Assembly: GCF_025499465.1 (NCBI RefSeq)
Contig: NZ_JAIMCA010000006.1
Span: forward strand, 496,001-560,000
DNA from: Allobosea sp. BH3
Lineage (GTDB): Bacteria > Pseudomonadota > Alphaproteobacteria > Rhizobiales > Beijerinckiaceae
DNA: 64,000 nucleotides
Direction: 5' to 3'
Position 1 is the stretch's first letter; every line of letters starts with the position of its first letter. Below, in pieces: positions 40,605-51,231 of this stretch. The notes beneath the pieces are model-generated. The model had not been told where the DNA came from, did not search any database, and saw only the letters and a list, made by a program, of their open reading frames with translations. A program made the translations under genes and the position numbers.

Positions 40605-40925
40605 TTAGCCCTGGCGCGCCGGGGTGCGCACGACGAGGCCGTCGAGATCGTCCCTGACCCTGATCTGGCAGGAGAGGCGCGACGTCGGGCGGACATCGAA
40701 GGCGAAGTCGAGCATGTCCTGCTCCATCGGCTCAGGCCCGCCGACGGCTTCCACCCAGGCCTCGTCGACATAGACGTGGCAGGTGGCGCAGGCACAGGCG
40801 CCGCCGCATTCGGCCTCGATGCCCGGCACGCCGTTGCGGATCGCCGTCTCCATCACGGTGGAACCGGCGTCCGCCGCGACGGTGCGGCTCTCGCCGTGAG
40901 CGTCAATGTAGGTGATGTTCGGCAT
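40605..40925 (-). CDS. 2Fe-2S ferredoxin, adrenodoxin/FdxB type
   Basis: 106 residues. The four cluster ligands are Cys40, Cys46, Cys49 and Cys86, exactly the CX5CX2CX36C spacing of adrenodoxin-type ferredoxins. N-terminal beta strands ([19 protein letters not shown]) and the C-terminal [15 protein letters not shown] region complete the fold. It shuttles electrons, for instance to a P450, in iron-sulfur cluster assembly or heme A synthesis. No isc genes or P450 are adjacent, so its partner is unknown. An additional Cys44 sits between two ligands. Confidence 0.95.
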
Positions 40926-41021: not shown

Positions 41022-41360
41022 TCAGGCCGCGCAATCGAAGCGGGCAACGACCGCCCTCGCCTCGGCCGCCGCCAGCGCCAGGGCGTCCATGGCGCTGTCC
41101 GCGAGGGACTGGCCGGGCTCCGCCAGGCTGAGCTCGATGCGGTCCGCCGCCTCCGCGACCTGCCAGGCGCCGACGGCCAGCGCCGCGCCCTTGAGCGTAT
41201 GGGCCGCATCCATCCGGGCCTGCCGGTCGGCGCTGCCGTGGATCGTGCGCAGATGGGCGGCGCATTGTTGGACGAAGAGCGTCAGCAACTCACGCTCCAG
41301 TTCGTGGTCGCCGCCGGTTTGGCGGGAAAGATGCGCGGTATCGATAGCCTGCTGGGTCAT
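41022..41360 (-). CDS. Stand-alone histidine phosphotransfer (Hpt) protein
   Basis: 112 residues. The Hpt motif AAHTLKGAALAVGAWQVAEAADRIEL contains the phospho-accepting His at about residue 53. The helical pattern on both sides fits a four-helix bundle. Such proteins relay phosphate between hybrid kinases and response regulators; ChpT-like roles in cell-cycle signalling belong to a different family. It lies divergent from the giant repeat protein at 41684 with a 323-bp region between. Partner kinase not in the window. Confidence 0.85.
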   Translation of the reverse strand: MTQQAIDTAHLSRQTGGDHELERELLTLFVQQCAAHLRTIHGSADRQARMDAAHTLKGAALAVGAWQVAEAADRIELSLAEPGQSLADSAMDALALAAAEARAVVARFDCAA

Positions 41361-41683: not shown

Positions 41684-44600
41684 ATGAATCGACCCAAGAA
41701 GCTCCAGGACCCCACTGAAGCTGCGATGTCGGCGATCGAGGAGGCACTGCGGCTCGACCAGCCCCAGGCCGAGCCTGCCACGGACGAGGCGGAGACGCCC
41801 GTCAACGCCGAACCGCGCCTGCCCTCCACCAGCGAGAACGACCTCAAGCTCGAGCTGCCTCGCGTCGAGCCTGCCGCTCCCGTGATCGCGCCGCCGGTTG
41901 CGCCTGTCGCTCCGCCCTCGCAACAGACCCAGCAGGCATCCCCCCGCGCGAGCGCAGCGCTCGCGCCCGACGCCAGCCGCGTCGCCAATGACGACCGCCG
42001 GGATTCCAGCTCGCTGGTCCATGCCTTCTCTGCCCGCACCTCGCGCAAGCCCTATGTCTTTGCAGCGCTCGCCTCGCTGACCTGGCTCGGCGGCGCCGCC
42101 TTCGTGCTGTTCGGCCGCTTCGGCTCCTTCACCAACGGCCTGCCCGAGCCGGTCGCCAATTTTGGCGTCGGCGAATGGACGCTGCTGGCGCTGTCCATCG
42201 GCGCGCCGATCGTATTCTTCTTCGTCCTGGCGGCGCTCTATCGGCGCACGCAGGAAATGCGCCTGATCTCCCGCGCCATGACCGAAGTGGCGCTGAGGCT
42301 CGCCGAGCCGGAGGTGGCTGGCGCCGACACCGTGCTGTCGCTCAGCCAGACGATCCGCCGCGAGGTCGCCGCCATGGGCGACGGCATCGAGCGCGCCGTG
42401 GCGCGCGCCGGCGAACTCGAGACCATCGTGCGCGGCGAGATCTCGACGCTCGAGCGCGCCTATGCCGACAACGAGATCCGACTGCGCTCGCTGATTGACG
42501 AACTCGTCACCCAGCGCGAGGCCGTCGTCGGCAATGCCGAGCGCGTGAAGCTCGCCATCAGCGGCGCGCATGAAGGCCTGTCCAAGGACCTCGACGGCGC
42601 CAGCCGCGCCATCGCCGACGCCGTCGCGCAGGCCGGAGACCGCGTCACCGGCTCACTCGGCGCCAAGGGCGACCAGATCACCCTGGCGCTCGGTCGCGCC
42701 GGCGAGCGCATGATCGAGGAGATCGGCGGGCGGAGCCACGAGCTGGTCGAACGGCTGCAGATCTCGTCGGGCGAACTGTCCCAACGGCTGGCCGGGGCGA
42801 GCGACAACCTCTCGACGATGCTGGACGGCCGCGCGCAGGAGATCGCTGGCTCGCTGGAACGCACCGGCACCGCGCTGAGTGAGAACCTCGCCAATGGTGC
42901 GCAGGAGGCCACGCGCGCCATCAACGAGACCGGCATGCAGGTGGCCCAGACGCTGACCTCGCGCATCGAGAGCGTCAACGAGACGCTGAAGGCCACGGGC
43001 GAGACGCTCTCCCAGGACATTTCGGCGCGCGGCACGGAAGCTGCCGAGCGCTTCGAGGTGAGCGGCCGCAGCATGATCTCGCTGATCGAGACGCAGGGCG
43101 TCGATCTGCAGAAGCGACTGTCGGAATCGGGCGAGGCCCTGCGCAGCACGCTCGCCGAAGAAGGCGAGAGCGTCACCACCCGGCTCGCCGAGGTCGGCCG
43201 CGGCGTCAACGGGCTGCTCAGCCGCCAGAACGAGGCGATCGCCACCCGGCTCACCGAGGTCGGCGACAGCGTCCATGCCCTCATCGGCAACCATGGTGAT
43301 GCGCTGGTCGGCCGCCTCAGCGAGGTCGGCACGAACATCGAGACCCTCATCGGTAGCCAGGGCGACACGCTCGTCGGCCGCCTCAGTGAGGCCGGCAGCA
43401 GCATCCACAACCTCATCGGCAGCCAGGGCGATACTCTGGTCGGCCGGATCACCGAGGCCGGCGAAAGTGTCCAGAATCTCATGGGCACCCATGGTGAAAC
43501 CCTGGTCAGCCGCATCACCGAGGTCGGCGAGAGCGTCCAGAACCTCATGGGCACGCATGGCGACACGCTGGTGAGCCGCATCACCGAAGTCGCCGGCCAG
43601 GTGCACGGCCTATTCACCGAGCAGGGCGGCCAGCTGGTCGATCGCCTCGGCGAGACCGGCGAGACGGTCCACGGCCTGCTCGATCAGCAGACCGAGAGGC
43701 TGATCGGCCGCGTTTCGGACGCCGGCCGCGAGCTCGCCGCTCTCGTCGGCGACCAGAGCGAAGCCCTCGTCTCCAGTGTTGCGGGCGCCGTCGACACCGT
43801 CGAGGCCCGACTGCGCGGCGAAGGCGAGCGCCTGACCTCTGGCCTTTCCGAGACCGGCATGCGCGTCAGCGCCCTTCTGGAAGAGCAGGCCGGCGCGATG
43901 ACCGTCAAGGTTTCGCAGGCCGGGCTCGAGATCAAGGATCTGCTCGGCAACGAGAGCCAGGCGCTGGCGAGCCGCGTCGCCGATGTCGGCCGCTCGGTGC
44001 ACGGCATCCTGTCCGAGCGCAGCAACGCGCTCATCTCCCGCCTCGCCGAGACGGGCGACAGCATCGACCAGCGGCTGGACGAACGCGGCCTGGCGCTCGC
44101 TACCCGCATCACCGAGAGCGTCGAAGCTGCGCAGGGCGCACTGGAGCAGCAGCAGGCCGGCTTCCTCTCCAGCGTCAGCGGGCAGAGCGAGGAGCTGGCG
44201 CGCCGCCTGGGCGACGCTACCCGCAACCTCACCGAGACCATCAATGTCGATGGCCGCGACATCGCCGACCGTGTCACCGCCGCGACGCAGGGGCTGCGCG
44301 AGACCTTCACCGTCCATGCCGACGAGGCGCGCGGCCTGCTCGCCGACACGGGCCGGGACATCGTGAAGGCGCTGACCCAGCAGGGCGGGCGCGTCAACGA
44401 GGCGCTGGCGGCCAATGCCGAGTCGATGCTGCGCTCGGTCGAGGGCCGCGCCCAGGCGCTGAACGAGTCGCTGGCCGGCCATCACGATGCGCTGACCAAG
44501 CTCTTCGACGAGCGCGGCCACGAGGTTGAGGCAGCGCTCAGCGAGCGGCTGCGCAGCTTCGAGGGCCTCATCCTCCAGCAAGGCGGCGCGCTGACCACCA

Positions 44601-47170
44601 AGATCGCCCGCGACGCGGCGCTGCTAACGCAGGCGCTGAACGCCTCCATGGCGCAGGTCGAGAAGCTGATCGCCGAGGACGGTGCCTCGCTCGCCAACAA
44701 GGCCGGCGCCCGCGCGCTGGAGGCCGCCCAGCTCCTCGCCGACCGCACACGCGAGGCGGCCGACGCGATGGAAGCGCAGATCACGCTGTTCGAGGACCGC
44801 TCGGGCGCCAAGAGCGCCGAGATCGCCGGCACGCTCGACAGCCTGATCGCGCGCATCGACGGCAGCCTCGGCTCCCGCGCCACGGCGCTGAACGAGGCGC
44901 TGGTCGAGCGCACGGTCGACATCGCCCGCGTGCTGGCCGAGGGCGGCCGCGAGGTCACCCGCGCTCTCGCCGCCAAGGCCGACGAGATCGGCGCAGCCGT
45001 CACCTCCAAGAGCGAGTCGCTCACGCGCACGCTCAGCGACAAGGCCGACACGATCAACGCCACGCTCGGCGGCCGCGCCCTGCAGATCGCCGACACGCTC
45101 GACCAGAGCGTGGCGCGCTTCGAGGAGCGCGTGGTCAACCGGCTCGACACCGTCTCCAACACGCTCGACACGCGTGGCAACGAGATCGCCACCGCGCTGC
45201 AGGGACGCTCCGAAACGATCTCCGCGGCGCTGTCCGAGCGGACGCAGGAACTGCGCAGCCTGTTCGACGACAAGGGCGGCGGCCTGATCACCGCGCTGAA
45301 CCAGCGCGGCGAGGCGCTCGCGAGCGAGTTCGCCACGGTCGGCGACACGGTCGTGAAGGCTCTGCAGAACCGCGGCGATGCCATCATCCTCGGCCTGCGC
45401 GACCGCGGCACCGCGATCGCCAACGCCGTCGAGGCTTCGACCAACTCGCTGCGCCAGACGCTCGAAAACGGCTCGCGGCAGTCCATCGATGCGCTGGTCG
45501 GCACCAACGAGCAGCTTCGCGACGAGCTGGGCGGCATGCTCGGCCGCCTCGACGAGGCGAACGCGATGATGCAGCAGGTCGTCAGCGGCACGAACAAGAG
45601 CCTCCACGCCGTCGAGAACAGCCTGTCGCTGCGCGTCGGCGAGCTGCAGAACGTGCTGCGCGGCGTGATGACGGAGGCTTCCAACGCCTCGCGCCACGTC
45701 ACCTCGCAGATCGCCGAGCTCAAGGACTTCTCGGAAGGCACGCTGAGCGAGACGGCCGCGCTGATCGGCCGGCTCGACGACCGCGGCGGCTCGCTGCACG
45801 AGGCGACCGAGGCCAGCGCCGCCGCGCTTTCGGCCGTGGTTGGCCGTCTGGAGCAGATCGAGGGCCGTGTCGGCCGGGCGCTCGCCGAGCGTCGCGACTC
45901 GCTGGAGCAGCTCCACGGCCTGATCGCCCATCGCACCGAAGACGTCGAAGCGATCACCCGCTCCTTCGCGGCCTTGATCGACGAGTCTCTCGGCGGCGCC
46001 GAGGAACGGGCCCGCCAGATCAGCGCCGTGCTCTCCGACTCGGCCGACCAGACGACGCGTGCCATTGCGCAGCAGTACGAGACCATCAAGACCGCATCGG
46101 GCAAGGAGCGGGAGCGCACGGCCGAGGCGCTGCGTGCAGCCTACTCGCAGGTCTCGAGCGAGATCGGCGGCGAGCTCGCCAAGGTAACGGAGCGCTTCCA
46201 GAAGGCGGCGCAGGACATGCGCGGCGTGACCACGGAAATCCAGCGAGAGCTGGAGGCGACCCGCTCCGAGCTGAAGCGCGGCGTCATCGAGCTGCCGCAG
46301 GAGGCCCAGGAATCGACCTCGCAGATGCGCCGGGTCGTGGCCGAGCAGATCAAGGCGCTGAACGACCTCACGGAGATCGTGACGCGGGCCGGCCGGCGCG
46401 GCGACGTCTCGCTGCCGCTCGACCAGATGGCGACGACAACCACGACGACCAGCCGCCGGAACACGACGGCAGCCGTCGCCGCGGCCGTGGCTTCCCCTGC
46501 CCCGGCGCAGCAGCCGTCCTTCATCCCGCCGCTGCCGCTGCCGCGTTCCAAGGCTGCAGCCACCGAAGAGCCCGCCCTGCGGCCGTCGCTCGATGCCGGC
46601 GAACCCGCGCCGCGCAGCCCGGCGCCCCGGCCCGAGGCGCGGCAGGAGCCGGCACCGGCCCCGGCGCGGGCAGCCCCTGCTCCCGCCCCGGAGAAGCCCC
46701 GCGACGCTGCGCGCCGCCAGCCGGACAATGCGCCGCAGCAGCCCGCCAAGGCAGGCTGGCTCTCCGACCTGCTGACCCGCGCCTCGCGCGAGGACGGCAC
46801 GCCCGAGCTGAGCAAGCCGACGACGCATGCCATCGAGAAGCTGGACTCGCTGTCGGTCGACATCGCGCGGATGATCGACCACGACGCCGCCGTCGAGCTC
46901 TGGGACCGCTACAAGCGCGGGGAGCGCAACGTCTTCACCCGCAGGCTCTACACGCTGCAGGGCCAGCAGACCTTCGACGAAATGCGCCGGAAGTATCGGC
47001 GTGATGCGGAGTTCAAGGAGACGGTGGACCGCTACATCGACGAGTTCGAGCGCCTGCTCGGCGAAGCGGCCAAGGACGACCGCGACTCGATGGTGGCGAA
47101 GACCTACCTGACCTCGGAAACCGGCAAGGTCTACACGATGCTGGCCCATGCCAGCGGGCGGTTCGAGTAA
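41684..47170 (+). CDS. Giant repeat membrane scaffold, growth-pole-ring (GPR/RgsE)-like
   Basis: 1828 residues. Residues 1-120 are an acidic, Pro/Ala-rich cytosolic part. Two membrane spans follow (about 124-144 and 165-188). Residues about 295-1310 form a continuous array of 22-residue units with the pattern GDTLVGRLSEAGSSIHNLIGSQ. Further helical sequence leads to a Pro/Ala-rich linker (about 1590-1690) and a conserved C-terminal domain (from WLSDLLTRAS, about 1693, to 1828). I recall that Agrobacterium GPR and Sinorhizobium RgsE, large two-span proteins with apolipoprotein-like helical repeats, form a ring at the growing pole in polar-growing Rhizobiales; this is most likely the counterpart. 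The second half of the repeats is rich in SET/DALT/RG motifs. A perfect intrinsic terminator follows. Confidence 0.8.
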   Translation: MNRPKKLQDPTEAAMSAIEEALRLDQPQAEPATDEAETPVNAEPRLPSTSENDLKLELPRVEPAAPVIAPPVAPVAPPSQQTQQASPRASAALAPDASRVANDDRRDSSSLVHAFSARTSRKPYVFAALASLTWLGGAAFVLFGRFGSFTNGLPEPVANFGVGEWTLLALSIGAPIVFFFVLAALYRRTQEMRLISRAMTEVALRLAEPEVAGADTVLSLSQTIRREVAAMGDGIERAVARAGELETIVRGEISTLERAYADNEIRLRSLIDELVTQREAVVGNAERVKLAISGAHEGLSKDLDGASRAIADAVAQAGDRVTGSLGAKGDQITLALGRAGERMIEEIGGRSHELVERLQISSGELSQRLAGASDNLSTMLDGRAQEIAGSLERTGTALSENLANGAQEATRAINETGMQVAQTLTSRIESVNETLKATGETLSQDISARGTEAAERFEVSGRSMISLIETQGVDLQKRLSESGEALRSTLAEEGESVTTRLAEVGRGVNGLLSRQNEAIATRLTEVGDSVHALIGNHGDALVGRLSEVGTNIETLIGSQGDTLVGRLSEAGSSIHNLIGSQGDTLVGRITEAGESVQNLMGTHGETLVSRITEVGESVQNLMGTHGDTLVSRITEVAGQVHGLFTEQGGQLVDRLGETGETVHGLLDQQTERLIGRVSDAGRELAALVGDQSEALVSSVAGAVDTVEARLRGEGERLTSGLSETGMRVSALLEEQAGAMTVKVSQAGLEIKDLLGNESQALASRVADVGRSVHGILSERSNALISRLAETGDSIDQRLDERGLALATRITESVEAAQGALEQQQAGFLSSVSGQSEELARRLGDATRNLTETINVDGRDIADRVTAATQGLRETFTVHADEARGLLADTGRDIVKALTQQGGRVNEALAANAESMLRSVEGRAQALNESLAGHHDALTKLFDERGHEVEAALSERLRSFEGLILQQGGALTTKIARDAALLTQALNASMAQVEKLIAEDGASLANKAGARALEAAQLLADRTREAADAMEAQITLFEDRSGAKSAEIAGTLDSLIARIDGSLGSRATALNEALVERTVDIARVLAEGGREVTRALAAKADEIGAAVTSKSESLTRTLSDKADTINATLGGRALQIADTLDQSVARFEERVVNRLDTVSNTLDTRGNEIATALQGRSETISAALSERTQELRSLFDDKGGGLITALNQRGEALASEFATVGDTVVKALQNRGDAIILGLRDRGTAIANAVEASTNSLRQTLENGSRQSIDALVGTNEQLRDELGGMLGRLDEANAMMQQVVSGTNKSLHAVENSLSLRVGELQNVLRGVMTEASNASRHVTSQIAELKDFSEGTLSETAALIGRLDDRGGSLHEATEASAAALSAVVGRLEQIEGRVGRALAERRDSLEQLHGLIAHRTEDVEAITRSFAALIDESLGGAEERARQISAVLSDSADQTTRAIAQQYETIKTASGKERERTAEALRAAYSQVSSEIGGELAKVTERFQKAAQDMRGVTTEIQRELEATRSELKRGVIELPQEAQESTSQMRRVVAEQIKALNDLTEIVTRAGRRGDVSLPLDQMATTTTTTSRRNTTAAVAAAVASPAPAQQPSFIPPLPLPRSKAAATEEPALRPSLDAGEPAPRSPAPRPEARQEPAPAPARAAPAPAPEKPRDAARRQPDNAPQQPAKAGWLSDLLTRASREDGTPELSKPTTHAIEKLDSLSVDIARMIDHDAAVELWDRYKRGERNVFTRRLYTLQGQQTFDEMRRKYRRDAEFKETVDRYIDEFERLLGEAAKDDRDSMVAKTYLTSETGKVYTMLAHASGRFE
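42578..45613 (+). repeat. About 46 tandem 66-bp (22-codon) units inside the giant scaffold gene
   Basis: Stepping exactly 66 nt from 42578 to 45548 (46 positions), the codon encodes a large hydrophobic residue (L, I, V, M or F) at all but four positions: Ala at 42908, 43040 and 44756, Ser at 45482. No indel interrupts the register. Units at 43304-43700 are also similar at the DNA level (CTGGTCGGCCG... starts at 43304, 43370, 43436, 43502, 43568, 43634, 43700). Confidence 0.9.
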
Positions 47171-47254: not shown

Positions 47255-47926
47255 CTACCGCGCCCAGCGCACGATCTCGATCAGCACCTGCGAGAGCGCC
47301 CGGTCGAGGGCCTGGGCCGCGCCCGGCCCGTCGACGGAGCTTGCCGGAACGCGGGCGGAGAACAGGCGCGCGCGCTGAATCTGCCCGGTCCGGTCTCCGA
47401 CGACCTTGGCGGTCATCTCGACCACCGCCGCGCCGCTCGCCGCGTCGATGTTGAAGCTGCGGATATCGGTATTGAGCTGCACGTCGGGGGAGATGCGCTG
47501 CCCCGGCCCGGAGACCGAGCCGATGCGGCTGGCGTTCTCGAAGGTCTGGATCAGGCGAGCCTGCACCAGCGCCGGAATACGGTCCGCCCATTGCGCACCG
47601 CCGACGAAGGAGAGCGCACCGCTCGAATCCTTGACGATGACTCGATCGGAATCGAGCGCCTGCACCGTCGTCGGCTGGGCCACGACCATGACGGCACGCG
47701 AGCCCCCTACCCGGCCGAAGCCGCTGGGTGCCGAGAGATCGAAAGTCGTCGGCGAAGGACTGCTGCAACCTGCCAGGAACAGGCAGCCGGCCAGGGTCGC
47801 GATCCCCAGCCTGGCGCGGCGGACCGGCGAAGGCGGCACCTGCATCGTCTGCGGCCCAGTTGCCTTGGCCTCGGTAGTCTTGGCCTCGGTCGTCTTGGAC
47901 CCGGTCGTCTTGGCCTCGAAGATCAT
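47255..47926 (-). CDS. ABC-type transport auxiliary lipoprotein (PqiC/MlaB-like partner of Mla system)
   Basis: 223 residues if started at ATG 47926, three nt after the mlaD stop; starting at ATG 47845 (196 residues) gives a normal signal with lipobox LAGC (FLAGCSS). The long version adds a five-residue repeat KTTEA, encoded by a 15-bp minisatellite. The mature part matches the ABC_trans_aux family: TFDLSAPSGFG, DRVIVKDSSGALSFVGGAQWADRIPALVQARLIQTFENA and the C-terminal VLIEIVRW. In the family it is an outer-membrane-associated lipoprotein that works with MCE proteins in lipid transport. The shorter start is more likely. Confidence 0.82.
   Translation of the reverse strand: MIFEAKTTGSKTTEAKTTEAKATGPQTMQVPPSPVRRARLGIATLAGCLFLAGCSSPSPTTFDLSAPSGFGRVGGSRAVMVVAQPTTVQALDSDRVIVKDSSGALSFVGGAQWADRIPALVQARLIQTFENASRIGSVSGPGQRISPDVQLNTDIRSFNIDAASGAAVVEMTAKVVGDRTGQIQRARLFSARVPASSVDGPGAAQALDRALSQVLIEIVRWAR
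47865..47924. repeat. 15-bp minisatellite (four units) at the mlaD/lipoprotein junction
   Basis: Four units of 15 bp on the plus strand, all starting TTGG: TTGGCCTCGGTAGTC, TTGGCCTCGGTCGTC, TTGGACCCGGTCGTC and TTGGCCTCGAAGATC. On the minus strand they are in frame and would encode KTTEA/KTTGS-like units upstream of the lipoprotein signal peptide. Confidence 0.85.
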
Positions 47927-47929
47927 GGG

Positions 47930-49051
47930 CTAGCGGGATCCGTTATATTGCGGGAGGGGAGCTCTGCCGCCGAAGATGAACTGCTGCGGGTTACGCTCGA
48001 AATTCCGCAGCGTCCTGTTGAGTTCCGACAAGGTGCGCTTACCATCCGAGGCCAGGCTTTCGACATCGCGCAGGCCAGGGCCCGTGAAGCGATTGATGCC
48101 AGCGGTGATCTCTGCGGTGCGCTTGTCCAGATTGTCGGCGAGCAAGCGAATCGATTTCGCGGCGTCGGCGACCTCCTGGAACGCACTGCGGCCCTCGGTG
48201 CCGGCGGCCGTGTTGAGGAAGGTCTGGGCTGCCTTGAGCACGCCCTCGACCTGGTCGGCCGCCCGGTTGAGCTTGTCCGTGATCGAGGCGGCATCCTTGA
48301 CCACCTTCTCGACCTCGACGCTGGAGCCGCCGAGCGCGCCAGTGAACTTGTCGACATTCTCGACAATGGCGGCGATCCTCTGCCGGTCGACCGCGCGCAC
48401 CACCTCCGTCAACTCCTTGGCCAGCGGCTGAAGCGTGTCGGCGATGGTGCCGAAGCTGGCGAGCAGCTTGTCGAGCCCGTCGGCATTGTTGCCCAGAGCC
48501 TGCGAGAACTTCTCGACATTGCGGACGGTGTTGTTGATCGGCTGGGTGTTCTGCTTGATCAGCCCGTCCAGCGAGGTCAGCGCCGTATCCGCCTTCTGGG
48601 CGACGTTGCGCACCGTCTCGAGGATGTCCTGCAATTCGGAGCGCTCGGCGATGATCGTGGGCAGCGGCTCGCCCGGCTTGGCTTTCAGGACAGCGGAGTC
48701 CGAGGCGCCGCCGATGAGCTGCAGCGCGACGACGCCGGCAAGCCCCTGCGCCTCGATGCGGGCACGGGTGTCCTCGCGCAGCGGCGTCGTGTTGGTGACC
48801 TGGATGACGGCATAGATGCGGCGCGGATCGTCCGGCTGAAGCTCGATATTCGTCACCTCGCCGACGCGAAGGCCGTTGAACAGCACGCTGGAGCCGCGGC
48901 CGAGCCCGGTCACGGAGCCGGTGAAGATGACGCGCACGCTCTCCTTGCGCCCGGCGCCGCCGCTGTTGAACCAGTAGACGAAGCCGAACGCCGCCGCGAG
49001 CACCGCGAGCGTGAACAGACCGACCAGAGCATAGTTTGCGCGGGATTCCAT
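47930..49051 (-). CDS. mlaD: MlaD-like MCE domain protein (lipid ABC transporter)
   Basis: 373 residues. A single N-terminal membrane anchor (ALVGLFTLAVLAAAFGFVYWF) is followed by an MCE domain at about 39-120 (VRVIFTGSVTGLGRGSSVLFNGLRVGEVTNIEL). A long helical C-terminal part with coiled character runs from about 130 to 355. MCE proteins form periplasmic hexamers that carry phospholipids between membranes. Start codon ATG 49051 is four nt from the mlaF stop. Order mlaE-mlaF-mlaD-lipoprotein is typical for alphaproteobacteria. Confidence 0.93.
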   Translation of the reverse strand: MESRANYALVGLFTLAVLAAAFGFVYWFNSGGAGRKESVRVIFTGSVTGLGRGSSVLFNGLRVGEVTNIELQPDDPRRIYAVIQVTNTTPLREDTRARIEAQGLAGVVALQLIGGASDSAVLKAKPGEPLPTIIAERSELQDILETVRNVAQKADTALTSLDGLIKQNTQPINNTVRNVEKFSQALGNNADGLDKLLASFGTIADTLQPLAKELTEVVRAVDRQRIAAIVENVDKFTGALGGSSVEVEKVVKDAASITDKLNRAADQVEGVLKAAQTFLNTAAGTEGRSAFQEVADAAKSIRLLADNLDKRTAEITAGINRFTGPGLRDVESLASDGKRTLSELNRTLRNFERNPQQFIFGGRAPLPQYNGSR

Positions 49052-49054
49052 GGT

Positions 49055-49900
49055 CTAGGTTTGTAATCCCTGCTCCCCGGCCGACAACCGGGCCATGGCA
49101 CGCTCTCCGCCAAAATACGCCTTCAGCCATGGATGGTCGGAAGCGAGCATCGTCTCCAGCGGACCGGCGGCGATGACCTTCCTGTCCGCCAGGGCGGCGA
49201 TTCGGTCGCAGGCATGATACAGGCTGTCGAGATCGTGGGTCACCATGAAGACGGTGAGCCCGAGCGTCTGTTTCAGCGTCATGATGAGGTCGTCGAACTC
49301 GGCGGCGCCGATCGGGTCCAGACCCGATGTCGGTTCGTCGAGGAAGACGATGTCGGGATCGAGCGCCAGCGCGCGGGCGAGCGCGGCGCGCTTGATCATG
49401 CCGCCCGAGAGTTCCGAAGGCGCCTTGTCGGCCGCGTCGGGTGGGAGGCCCACGAGATCGAGCTTCACCATCGCCAGTTCGTCGAGCAGATCCGGCGACA
49501 GATCCAGATATTCGCGCATCGGCACCTGGATATTCTGCTTCACCGACAGCGCCGAGAAGAGCGCGCCCTGTTGGAACATCACGCCGAAGCGCCGCTCCAG
49601 CGCGCGCCGCTGCGGAGGCGTCAGCGTATCGACGTTCTCGCCGAAGACCTCGATCGTGCCCCGCGATTTGCGCACGAGACCGAGGATGGTGCGGGTCAGC
49701 ACCGACTTGCCCTGCCCCGAACCGCCGACGAAGCCCAGGATCTCGCCGCGCATCACGTCGAGGTCGAGCCCGTCCATGATGACCTTGTCACCGAAGGCCA
49801 CCTTCAGGTCGCGGACCTTGATGACCGCTTCGGGGGCTTTCGCCGGGGCTGCTGCTGCCGGGCGCTCATGAGCGAGAGTGTTCTGCGTCACCATCGTCAC
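49055..49900 (-). CDS. mlaF: MlaF-like ABC ATPase (lipid transport)
   Basis: 281 residues from GTG 49900 (overlapping the mlaE stop) or ATG 49894. Walker A GGSGQGKSVLTR, Q-loop MFQQGALFSALSV, signature LSGGMIKRAALARAL with Walker B IVFLDEPTSGLDP and His switch FMVTHDLDSLYHA. SGGM in the signature and the QQGALFS Q-loop are hallmarks of MlaF/Ttg2A ATPases. It couples ATP hydrolysis to lipid transfer by MlaE and MlaD. An Ala/Pro-rich N-terminus of about 25 residues precedes the core. Confidence 0.95.
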   Translation of the reverse strand: MTMVTQNTLAHERPAAAAPAKAPEAVIKVRDLKVAFGDKVIMDGLDLDVMRGEILGFVGGSGQGKSVLTRTILGLVRKSRGTIEVFGENVDTLTPPQRRALERRFGVMFQQGALFSALSVKQNIQVPMREYLDLSPDLLDELAMVKLDLVGLPPDAADKAPSELSGGMIKRAALARALALDPDIVFLDEPTSGLDPIGAAEFDDLIMTLKQTLGLTVFMVTHDLDSLYHACDRIAALADRKVIAAGPLETMLASDHPWLKAYFGGERAMARLSAGEQGLQT

Positions 49901-51036
49901 ATCTCGATCGAGGCGAAGAACATGGCGAAGAGGCCGTCGACGACGATCACCATGAAGATCGCCTTCACCACCGAGGCCGTGACCTGCCGGCCGAGCGATT
50001 CAGCCGAGCCTTTGACAGCCAGCCCCTCGATAGAGGCGATGAGGCCAATGACGAAGGCCATGAAAGGCGCCTTGATCAGCCCGACGGCAAAATGCTTCCA
50101 GGTGATGACCGACTGCAGCCGGGCGAGGAAGGTGTCGACGCCGATGCCGCCATAGAGCCAGGTCACCAGCCCCGCCCCGACGAGGCCAGCCATCGCCGAG
50201 ATGAAAGTCAGGATCGGCAGCGAGATGATCAGCGCCAGTATGCGCGGCACGACCAGCACCTCGATCGGATCGAGCCCCATCACGCGCAGCGCATCGATCT
50301 CCTCCCGCATCTTCATCGACCCGATCTCGGCCGTGAAGGCGGAGCCGGAGCGGCCGGCGATCATGATCGAGGTCAGCAGCACCGCGAGTTCGCGCAGGAT
50401 CAGGATGCCGGTCAGGTTCACCACGAAGACCGTCGCGCCGAACTGCTCGAGCTGGAAGATTCCCTGCTGGGCGACGATGCAGCCGACGAGGAACGAGATC
50501 AGCATGATGATCGGAGCGCCGTCGAAGGCGATCATCTCGACCTGGTTGACGAGCGAAGGGCCGCGGAACTTGCGGGGGCCGAGCACCACCCCCGCCGAGC
50601 CGACGATGACCTCGCCCAGGAACATCGCGCCGCCCACCATGTCGCGACCGAAGCCGACGACGCTCTCGCCGATGTTCACGAGGACGTCGATGATACGGAT
50701 CTGCCGGTGTGGCGCCGGCTTCTCGCCCTCATGAATCTTGACCTCGGCGAGCAGGATGCCGTGCTCTGGCCGGCTGCTGACGAGTTCGACGTCGCAGCCC
50801 TCGCGCTCGCGGCGCGCCTTCAGCCGGTTTAGGACATAGGCGCCGAGCGTATCGAGCCGCGTGACGGCCGAGAGATCGATCCTCGCCCGGCTCGGCAGGC
50901 GGTCGCCGATCTCCTCGATCAGCTCTTCGACGCGCGGAGCGCGGTCCGCGCTCCAGGAGCCCGCCAGCGCCACCGCGAGGGTCCCGGCATCGTCACGGAA
51001 GATCGCCTGCGGTTCGGCGGTATCGACGCTCGCCAT
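49897..51036 (-). CDS. mlaE: MlaE-like permease with N-terminal STAS domain
   Basis: 379 residues from ATG 51036; ATG 51105 and the longer frame at 51192 are weaker alternatives with no clear ribosome site. Residues about 10-100 form a STAS-like domain (LAVALAGSWSADRAPRVEELIEE; IDLSAVTRLDTLGAYVLNRL), equivalent to the separate MlaB of E. coli. The MlaE permease fold follows from about 135, with FLVGCIVAQQGIFQLEQFG, RSGSAFTAEIGSMKMREEIDALRVMG and the C-terminal KAPFMAFVIGLIASIEGLAVKG. It is the inner-membrane lipid permease. The fused STAS domain explains the absence of an mlaB gene. Confidence 0.93.
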   Translation of the reverse strand: MASVDTAEPQAIFRDDAGTLAVALAGSWSADRAPRVEELIEEIGDRLPSRARIDLSAVTRLDTLGAYVLNRLKARREREGCDVELVSSRPEHGILLAEVKIHEGEKPAPHRQIRIIDVLVNIGESVVGFGRDMVGGAMFLGEVIVGSAGVVLGPRKFRGPSLVNQVEMIAFDGAPIIMLISFLVGCIVAQQGIFQLEQFGATVFVVNLTGILILRELAVLLTSIMIAGRSGSAFTAEIGSMKMREEIDALRVMGLDPIEVLVVPRILALIISLPILTFISAMAGLVGAGLVTWLYGGIGVDTFLARLQSVITWKHFAVGLIKAPFMAFVIGLIASIEGLAVKGSAESLGRQVTASVVKAIFMVIVVDGLFAMFFASIEM

Positions 51037-51231
51037 GTCGCTACGACGTCCCTCACCGCCCGAAAAGCCTCGCGGCTCCGGCTCGTCGCCCCGAATTGCC
51101 CCCATGTCCCTGTATTGCCGTGGCGAGGCCGCTTTGCAAGCGCGCGGCGCGGTGTCGGACACTTCCGTTCCGAAGCGTTGCCGCGGTGCCATGGTTTGCA
51201 GGCCGGAGGAACGGCCGAATGTCCCGAAGAC

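Follow-up and report, generated by a model that had tools for sequence, protein, structure and literature searches.

The window (the whole 64,000-nucleotide stretch of Allobosea sp. BH3 DNA that was analysed) contains one very large open reading frame, encoding a counterpart of the polar scaffold proteins GPR and RgsE. The features recognized within the gene and around it are listed in Table 1. From the N-terminus onwards, the protein is made of a Pro-rich tail, two membrane spans, a neck, a long rod, a second helical stretch, a Pro/Ala linker and a C-terminal domain. The two spans, already noticed in the preliminary description, were recovered by a Kyte-Doolittle scan.

Table 1. Features of the gpr locus (window positions; residue numbers refer to the 1828-aa protein)
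Feature	Residues	Position	Strand	Remarks
GPR/RgsE orthologue (gpr)		41684-47170	+	ATG start; ORF of 1828 aa
Transmembrane span 1	124-144	42053-42115	+	Kyte-Doolittle scan
Transmembrane span 2	162-187	42167-42244	+	Kyte-Doolittle scan
Conserved helical neck	191-278	42254-42517	+	spans and neck: 0 indels in 42 congeneric pair alignments
Hendecad rod	279-1303	42518-45592	+	single unbroken register
About 5 units of 66 bp, still alike in DNA		43251-43592	+	79% matches
Second helical stretch, less regular	1311-1570	45614-46393	+	best period 3.605; 0 indels in 42 pairs
Pro/Ala-rich linker	1571-1700	46394-46783	+	25 Pro; 89 indels in 42 congeneric pairs
Conserved all-helical C-terminal domain	1714-1828	46823-47167	+	no Pfam or NCBIfam match
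Hpt phosphotransfer protein, 112 aa, divergent neighbour		41022-41360	-	PF01627, E 2e-10; phospho-acceptor His present
2Fe-2S ferredoxin, adjoining Hpt		40605-40925	-	PF00111; order as in S. meliloti
Mla-type lipid transport genes (auxiliary lipoprotein, MlaD, ATPase, MlaE with STAS)		47255-51192	-	convergent with gpr

The 66-bp units that are still alike in DNA are probably the youngest duplications of the array. An 841-aa open frame lies antisense to gpr (44624-47149, minus strand) and probably just reflects the GC-rich codons of that gene. The mla operon was rejected as a functional neighbour, since S. meliloti RgsE has a transposase and cytochrome bc1 genes downstream.

Identity of the encoded protein

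Judged from its sequence, the protein is an ordinary member of the GPR/RgsE family, as the preliminary description had correctly guessed: C-terminal domain, spans, apolipoprotein-type repeats and gene neighbours all match those of S. meliloti RgsE. A search with the C-terminal 139 aa returned S. meliloti CP090106.1 (58.4% identity over 138 aa, E 1e-52) and no match to an unrelated family. The S. meliloti match sits in a 2089-aa ORF annotated as 'kinesin', with spans at 117-143 and 152-186; given organism and length, this ORF would be SMc00190, the 2,089-aa RgsE (PMC7327166). In both organisms the divergent Hpt gene and then the 2Fe-2S ferredoxin gene are found upstream, in the same order. The C-terminal match was present in 41 genomes out of 41, from 17 families (own included), as one copy in 40 of them and as two in the remaining one, where the second copy is a weak match; within the genus, it was carried by all of 67 genomes. 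CP090106.1 (L074) is labelled as plasmid pSymB, yet it is 3.7 Mb long and holds rgsE, folP and cytochrome bc1 genes, and is therefore probably the chromosome.

Two N-terminal spans, a cytoplasmic bulk, apolipoprotein-type repeats, a Pro-rich linker and the C-terminal domain are common to RgsE/GPR and to the protein described here, whereas S. meliloti RgsE (2089 aa, PMC7327166) and A. tumefaciens GPR (Atu1348, 2115 aa, PMC8262873) are both longer than its 1828 aa. The symbiont S. meliloti can do without rgsE under laboratory conditions (PMC7327166).

MreB and Rgs proteins have been described as mutually exclusive (PMC7327166). Two matches to the MreB model, at 60.8 and 39.3 bits, exceed the Pfam cut-off in this genome; they lie in frames of 756 and 566 aa and cover positions 93-317 and 130-301 of the 327 in the model (about two thirds and about half). 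Both appear to be proteins of the Hsp70 type, which would agree with the exclusion described; were either truly MreB, purely polar growth would become less likely. The control was C. glutamicum, which lacks MreB according to a title cited by PMC7327166, and it too exceeds the cut-off.

Register and composition of the rod

The preliminary description had placed 46 units of 66 bp at 42578-45548 and had counted L, I, V, M or F at 42 of the 46 register codons. The codon count (column 0, units from 42578) was reproduced exactly and the number of units was confirmed; the span requires correction, since its two ends are the first and the last of the register codons, whereas the full units end at 45613. 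The same residues occupy column 4 in 44 units, column 11 in 43 and column 15 in 44, and the best column obtained in 20,000 shuffles reached 26. The register kept its hydrophobic periodicity in this comparison, none of the 20,000 shuffles being as high.

The 22-residue repeat stands as a unit of sequence, not as the hydrophobic period, which is 11. Hydrophobic spectral power is 147 at 11/3 residues per turn, 32 at 11 and 0.2 at 22; the stripe period of 11 corresponds to 3.667 residues per turn. A heptad coiled coil was rejected, power at 3.5 residues per turn being as low as 0.9 (0.2 at 3.6). The mean residue identity of 57 congeneric arrays is highest at lag 22 (0.25); it falls to 0.16 at lag 11 and to 0.08 at lags which are not multiples of 11. 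The repeating unit of sequence is accordingly made of two 11-mers that differ from each other.

A phase parse assigned the whole rod to one register, while five out of five shuffled copies gave none; the parsing profile was built from this same array, and the anchors and alignments used below are independent of it. The coherent moment of the whole rod amounts to 95% of the mean local moment (46 units), which is 0.36 at the 11/3 periodicity. The three core columns contain no K, R, D or E in 276 positions. Two of them are aliphatic (LIVMF at 85/92 and 88/92 positions) and the third is rich in Gly (44/92). Basic residues cluster on one flank (25/92 and 27/92 in two columns) and acidic residues on the far face. 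By composition count, the 1012-aa repeat block has a net charge of -51, includes 18 Lys, and is devoid of Pro, Trp, Tyr and Cys.

The apolipoprotein-type pattern, proposed beforehand, was borne out by Pfam: PF01442 matches 9 stretches with an E of 3.4e-59 (200 bits, cut-off 90). Among PDB chains, the rod matches apolipoprotein A-IV (9hx4_F and 3s84_A, E 5.5e-6 and 7.7e-6), which has 11/22-residue amphipathic repeats of the same kind. The protein described here differs from it in being 1828 aa long, in its membrane hairpin, in the about 1000 Pro-free residues of its rod, and in being acidic and Gly-rich; the likeness is likely to be one of pattern, rather than of common descent. A small secreted apolipoprotein acting as a lipid carrier was rejected in view of size and N-terminal hairpin. 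A ZorA (Zorya)-like tail was also rejected (29.7 bits, NCBIfam cut-off 190), the match being treated as a shared coil pattern. Structure prediction, suggested for the repeat block, was obtained for aa 110-560: single-sequence AlphaFold2 returned long helices at a low confidence (pLDDT 58), in a model which cannot show oligomers.

Giant 11-mer helices coat lipid in perilipins and synuclein. The rod may, by analogy, be one giant amphipathic 11/3 helix that lies flat against the inner membrane, or against stores of lipid at the pole, and organizes lipid there; this we regard as possible but rather unlikely. Phase would then be kept so that the hydrophobic face stays in one plane, a reading to which we give the same limited credit. 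The matches to PF01442 and apolipoprotein A-IV and the local moment at 11/3 periodicity are in its favour, as is the lipid role proposed for GPR in PMC8262873, where lipid handling is favoured for the apolipoprotein-like parts and the question is raised whether the helices mediate protein or lipid interactions. On the other side, an anionic membrane is disfavoured by the acidity and the few Lys of the block; the hydrophobic face is also narrow, with Gly filling nearly half of its third column, and basic residues are concentrated on a single flank. Core columns and charge pattern taken together would suggest tight packing of rod against rod, in preference to the coating of an anionic membrane.

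Length and phase of the rod among relatives

Rod length was measured as the distance between two non-repeat anchors, located at aa 256 and 1391 of the protein described here. A further 59 congeneric loci were taken from 66 other genomes of the genus. Three of them with broken or truncated frames (L106, L113 and L114) were dropped, and G004, G015, G019, G051, G052, G069 and G070 were left out of the 67 congeners, their frame being short or at a contig end. In L106 (G082, a two-contig assembly) gpr is interrupted close to its C-terminal end, with a 131-aa frame, by a real change or by a sequencing error.

The 57 proteins obtained, own included, show 31 different anchor distances, ranging between 816 and 1586 aa. 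The distance in the protein described here is exceeded by at most 451 aa and undercut by at most 319 aa, and 53 of the other 56 proteins differ from it by exact multiples of 11. Two of the three exceptions deviate by 7 (modulo 11); alignments show 4-residue deletions in both; 4 residues correspond to 1.09 helical turns, a small phase error. The third, L109, is off by 9 and has an unparsed stretch inside its rod.

Indels were counted in 42 nearest-neighbour pair alignments; pairs share proteins, and the counts are not those of independent events. Within the array, 55 out of 58 indels are multiples of 11, against 2 out of 142 elsewhere in the protein (0/50 in the N-tail, 2/89 in the linker, 0/3 in the C-terminal domain). 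Their sizes are 22 (17 cases), 33 (15), 44 (10), 66 (7), 88 (3), 154 (2) and 220 (1), while those off the lattice are 4 (2 cases) and 251 (1). No indels were found in these pairs within spans and neck, or within the second helix. Within the genus, helical phase is thus kept and rod length is not: it is twist that evolution seems to have preserved.

The preliminary description had taken the rod as free of indels and had suggested repeat number as the measure of a physical dimension, such as rod length or ring radius. Neither idea agrees with these counts: length varies, and the near-constant property is phase. The very long rod in a single register counts in favour of a molecular ruler, but the spread of lengths within one genus, with differences as large as 264 aa, on the lattice, between nearest neighbours, makes any such ruler highly improbable; in the form of a fixed ruler, it was rejected.

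The lattice might also arise with no selection on phase, from recombination or slippage between repeat units. Unequal recombination between repeats is by itself sufficient to give whole-unit length changes; some 66-bp units are alike at the DNA level, and changes of 22 and 33 residues make up 32 of the 58 array indels, a single 11 being never seen. Most units have however diverged, with the mean identity of 25% at lag 22 given above, and small indels are distributed very differently along the protein. Changes of 1-10 residues account for 49/50 indels in the N-tail and 85/89 in the linker; the array, with 53,294 residues compared, has just 2, each of 4 residues. The adjoining helix, which is not a repeat, has 0 indels in 10,038 residues, which makes selection against small shifts the simpler explanation. 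We consider recombination or slippage alone an improbable explanation.

Outside the genus, the lattice was sought in two other genera, one represented by a single genome and the other by three (59% identity). Array indels were 55, 11, 14, 19, 11, 22 and 22 between L052 and L251, and 11, 44, 25, 19, 11, 22 and 22 between L052 and L252; the odd ones in these pairs lie 12-15 residues apart and add up to 33 and 44, respectively. S. meliloti and Shinella differ by array indels of 33, 51, 55, 15, 15, 7, 11 and 62, so that the lattice is not clean. The pair alignment of S. meliloti with Sinorhizobium sp. K101 (97%) contains no array indels. At 15 loci of other families, anchor distances did not fall, as a set, on the lattice of the protein described here.

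The phase parse found a single register in L052, L054 and L057. In S. meliloti, Shinella, L059, L060, L061 and L066, register shifts were observed. Where two registers adjoin directly, the shift is of 4 columns in 14 cases out of 15; across unparsed gaps it varies. S. meliloti RgsE itself has three adjacent 4-column shifts in its rod, besides unparsed gaps, where the protein described here has one register. Strict phase is therefore not universal, and the strict lattice is shown for the own genus alone, distant pairs giving no clean one. In L055 (G034), a 2618-aa open frame, two rod stretches in the same register are separated by a gap of 162 residues.

The reading that we favour, and hold to be fairly probable, is that the protein is a GPR/RgsE scaffold organizing polar growth, in which rods associate with one another through the in-phase stripe. 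The N-terminal hairpin would anchor it to the inner membrane, leaving nearly the whole scaffold in the cytoplasm, where it would mark the growing pole and gather the wall-building machinery. With 0.15 nm per residue, a rod folded as a single alpha-helix would measure about 154 nm. Rods may associate side to side along the continuous three-column stripe, which presents, every 11 residues, one small column, often Gly, and two large aliphatic ones, forming a right-handed coiled coil of the hendecad type; polar foci would be bundles of such rods, with the C-terminal domain docking or capping at the end of its flexible linker. In a scaffold of this kind any length would work, provided that the stripe is in phase, and whole units would therefore be gained and lost freely, while shifts of 1-3 residues would be purged. 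With rods varying in length nearly two-fold on an 11-residue lattice, natural variants are at hand that separate 'length matters' from 'phase matters'.

An extension of 600 nm is printed in PMC8262873 for the 1,700-aa helical domain; by our arithmetic, an alpha-helix of 1,700 aa at 0.15 nm per residue is about 255 nm long.

The new and testable part is the phase-locked variation in length. No mention of the 11-residue lattice or of the Hpt neighbour was found in the available portions of PMC8262873, PMC7327166, PMC13170164 and PMC8546619, nor in those of PMC9731437, PMC9239152, PMC7403779, PMC4460556 and PMC10127582; the apolipoprotein likeness of GPR is already published (PMC8262873).

C-terminal domain, TipN and the Hpt neighbour

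For the C-terminal domain of the protein, neither NCBIfam (at E up to 1) nor Pfam (at E up to 0.01) returned a match, and that of one relative gave a match to LRIM1_dimer below the cut-off (E 0.003, 17.9 bits against 35). A model built from a 21-row alignment (pLDDT 74.5, pTM 0.66) gave no PDB match at E <=0.001 in a fold search, the best being 1.1, and the C-terminal profile reached a best E of only 0.061 against PDB sequences. A profile of the domain matched 107 of 289 genomes of the class Alphaproteobacteria; 103 of these, labelled as 'same class', belong to families other than the own. One of the matching families was taken to be Caulobacteraceae on the basis of a flagellin sequence, and a scan of named genomes confirmed the label (32 loci, 25 of them from Brevundimonas).

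A full-length Brevundimonas profile matched 132 of 149 Caulobacteraceae genomes, 14 of which were examined at the locus level. The GPR profile A1 hit all 14 proteins, when run within the locus ORFs (E 8.4e-13 to 2.8e-5), and two Brevundimonas proteins (5.6e-7 and 1e-8). By hhalign against 16 Caulobacteraceae proteins, the C-terminal domain of GPR aligned at 97.5% (E 6.7e-12), while 16 other windows of the TipN-type alignment reached at most 1.5% with the C-terminal profile. Spans and neck together aligned at 97.2% (E 3.2e-11) and the neck alone at 58.8%; other TipN-type windows, some of which may overlap the neck, scored up to 23.6% against it.

In two Caulobacteraceae genomes, both matched at 99% by the flagellin sequence just mentioned, the ATG-initiated ORF is exactly 882 aa long (an upstream TTG would give 888). 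This is the length of TipN from Caulobacter crescentus (PMC13170164), a scaffold of the new pole. The 882-aa-type proteins are alike to the protein described here in C-terminal domain, and may be so in N-terminal hairpin and neck; they are less than half as long, and no Hpt gene adjoins theirs in 16 of 16 Caulobacteraceae loci, whereas one adjoins gpr here. The 'similarity' between GPR and TipN has been noted before (PMC8546619), so that the link is not new and is only delimited here; TipN is called 'analogous' in PMC13170164, and a 2019 PNAS paper on GPR may say more.

GPR/RgsE, TipN and the uncatalogued alphaproteobacterial homologues could well be one ancient polar scaffold, although we would stop short of calling this probable. 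Its ends would be constant and its rod variable in length, with selection for phase rather than length, and the neighbouring Hpt protein would be its phosphorelay partner.

The conserved Hpt neighbour, a putative partner which may couple the scaffold to a phosphorelay, is a regulatory lead. A divergent Hpt gene was found upstream in 56 of 59 congeneric loci, the other three holding 0-1 bases upstream, and in 13 of 15 loci from other families of the order, where the two misses hold 379 and 1357 bases. Among 20 loci labelled as same class only, Hpt was present in 10 (5 families with it, 9 without). In a further set of 14 Caulobacteraceae loci it was found in none. Of 10 additional loci, six had no Hpt beside the gpr-like gene and three had it upstream (L168, L169 and L170, L169 being the same place as L153). 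In L172 (G164), the 905-aa frame immediately upstream of the gpr-like gene, which runs in the same direction, includes an Hpt-like stretch. Of 84 aligned Hpt sequences, 79 retain the phospho-acceptor His, the exceptions being four of Sphingomonas type and L060.
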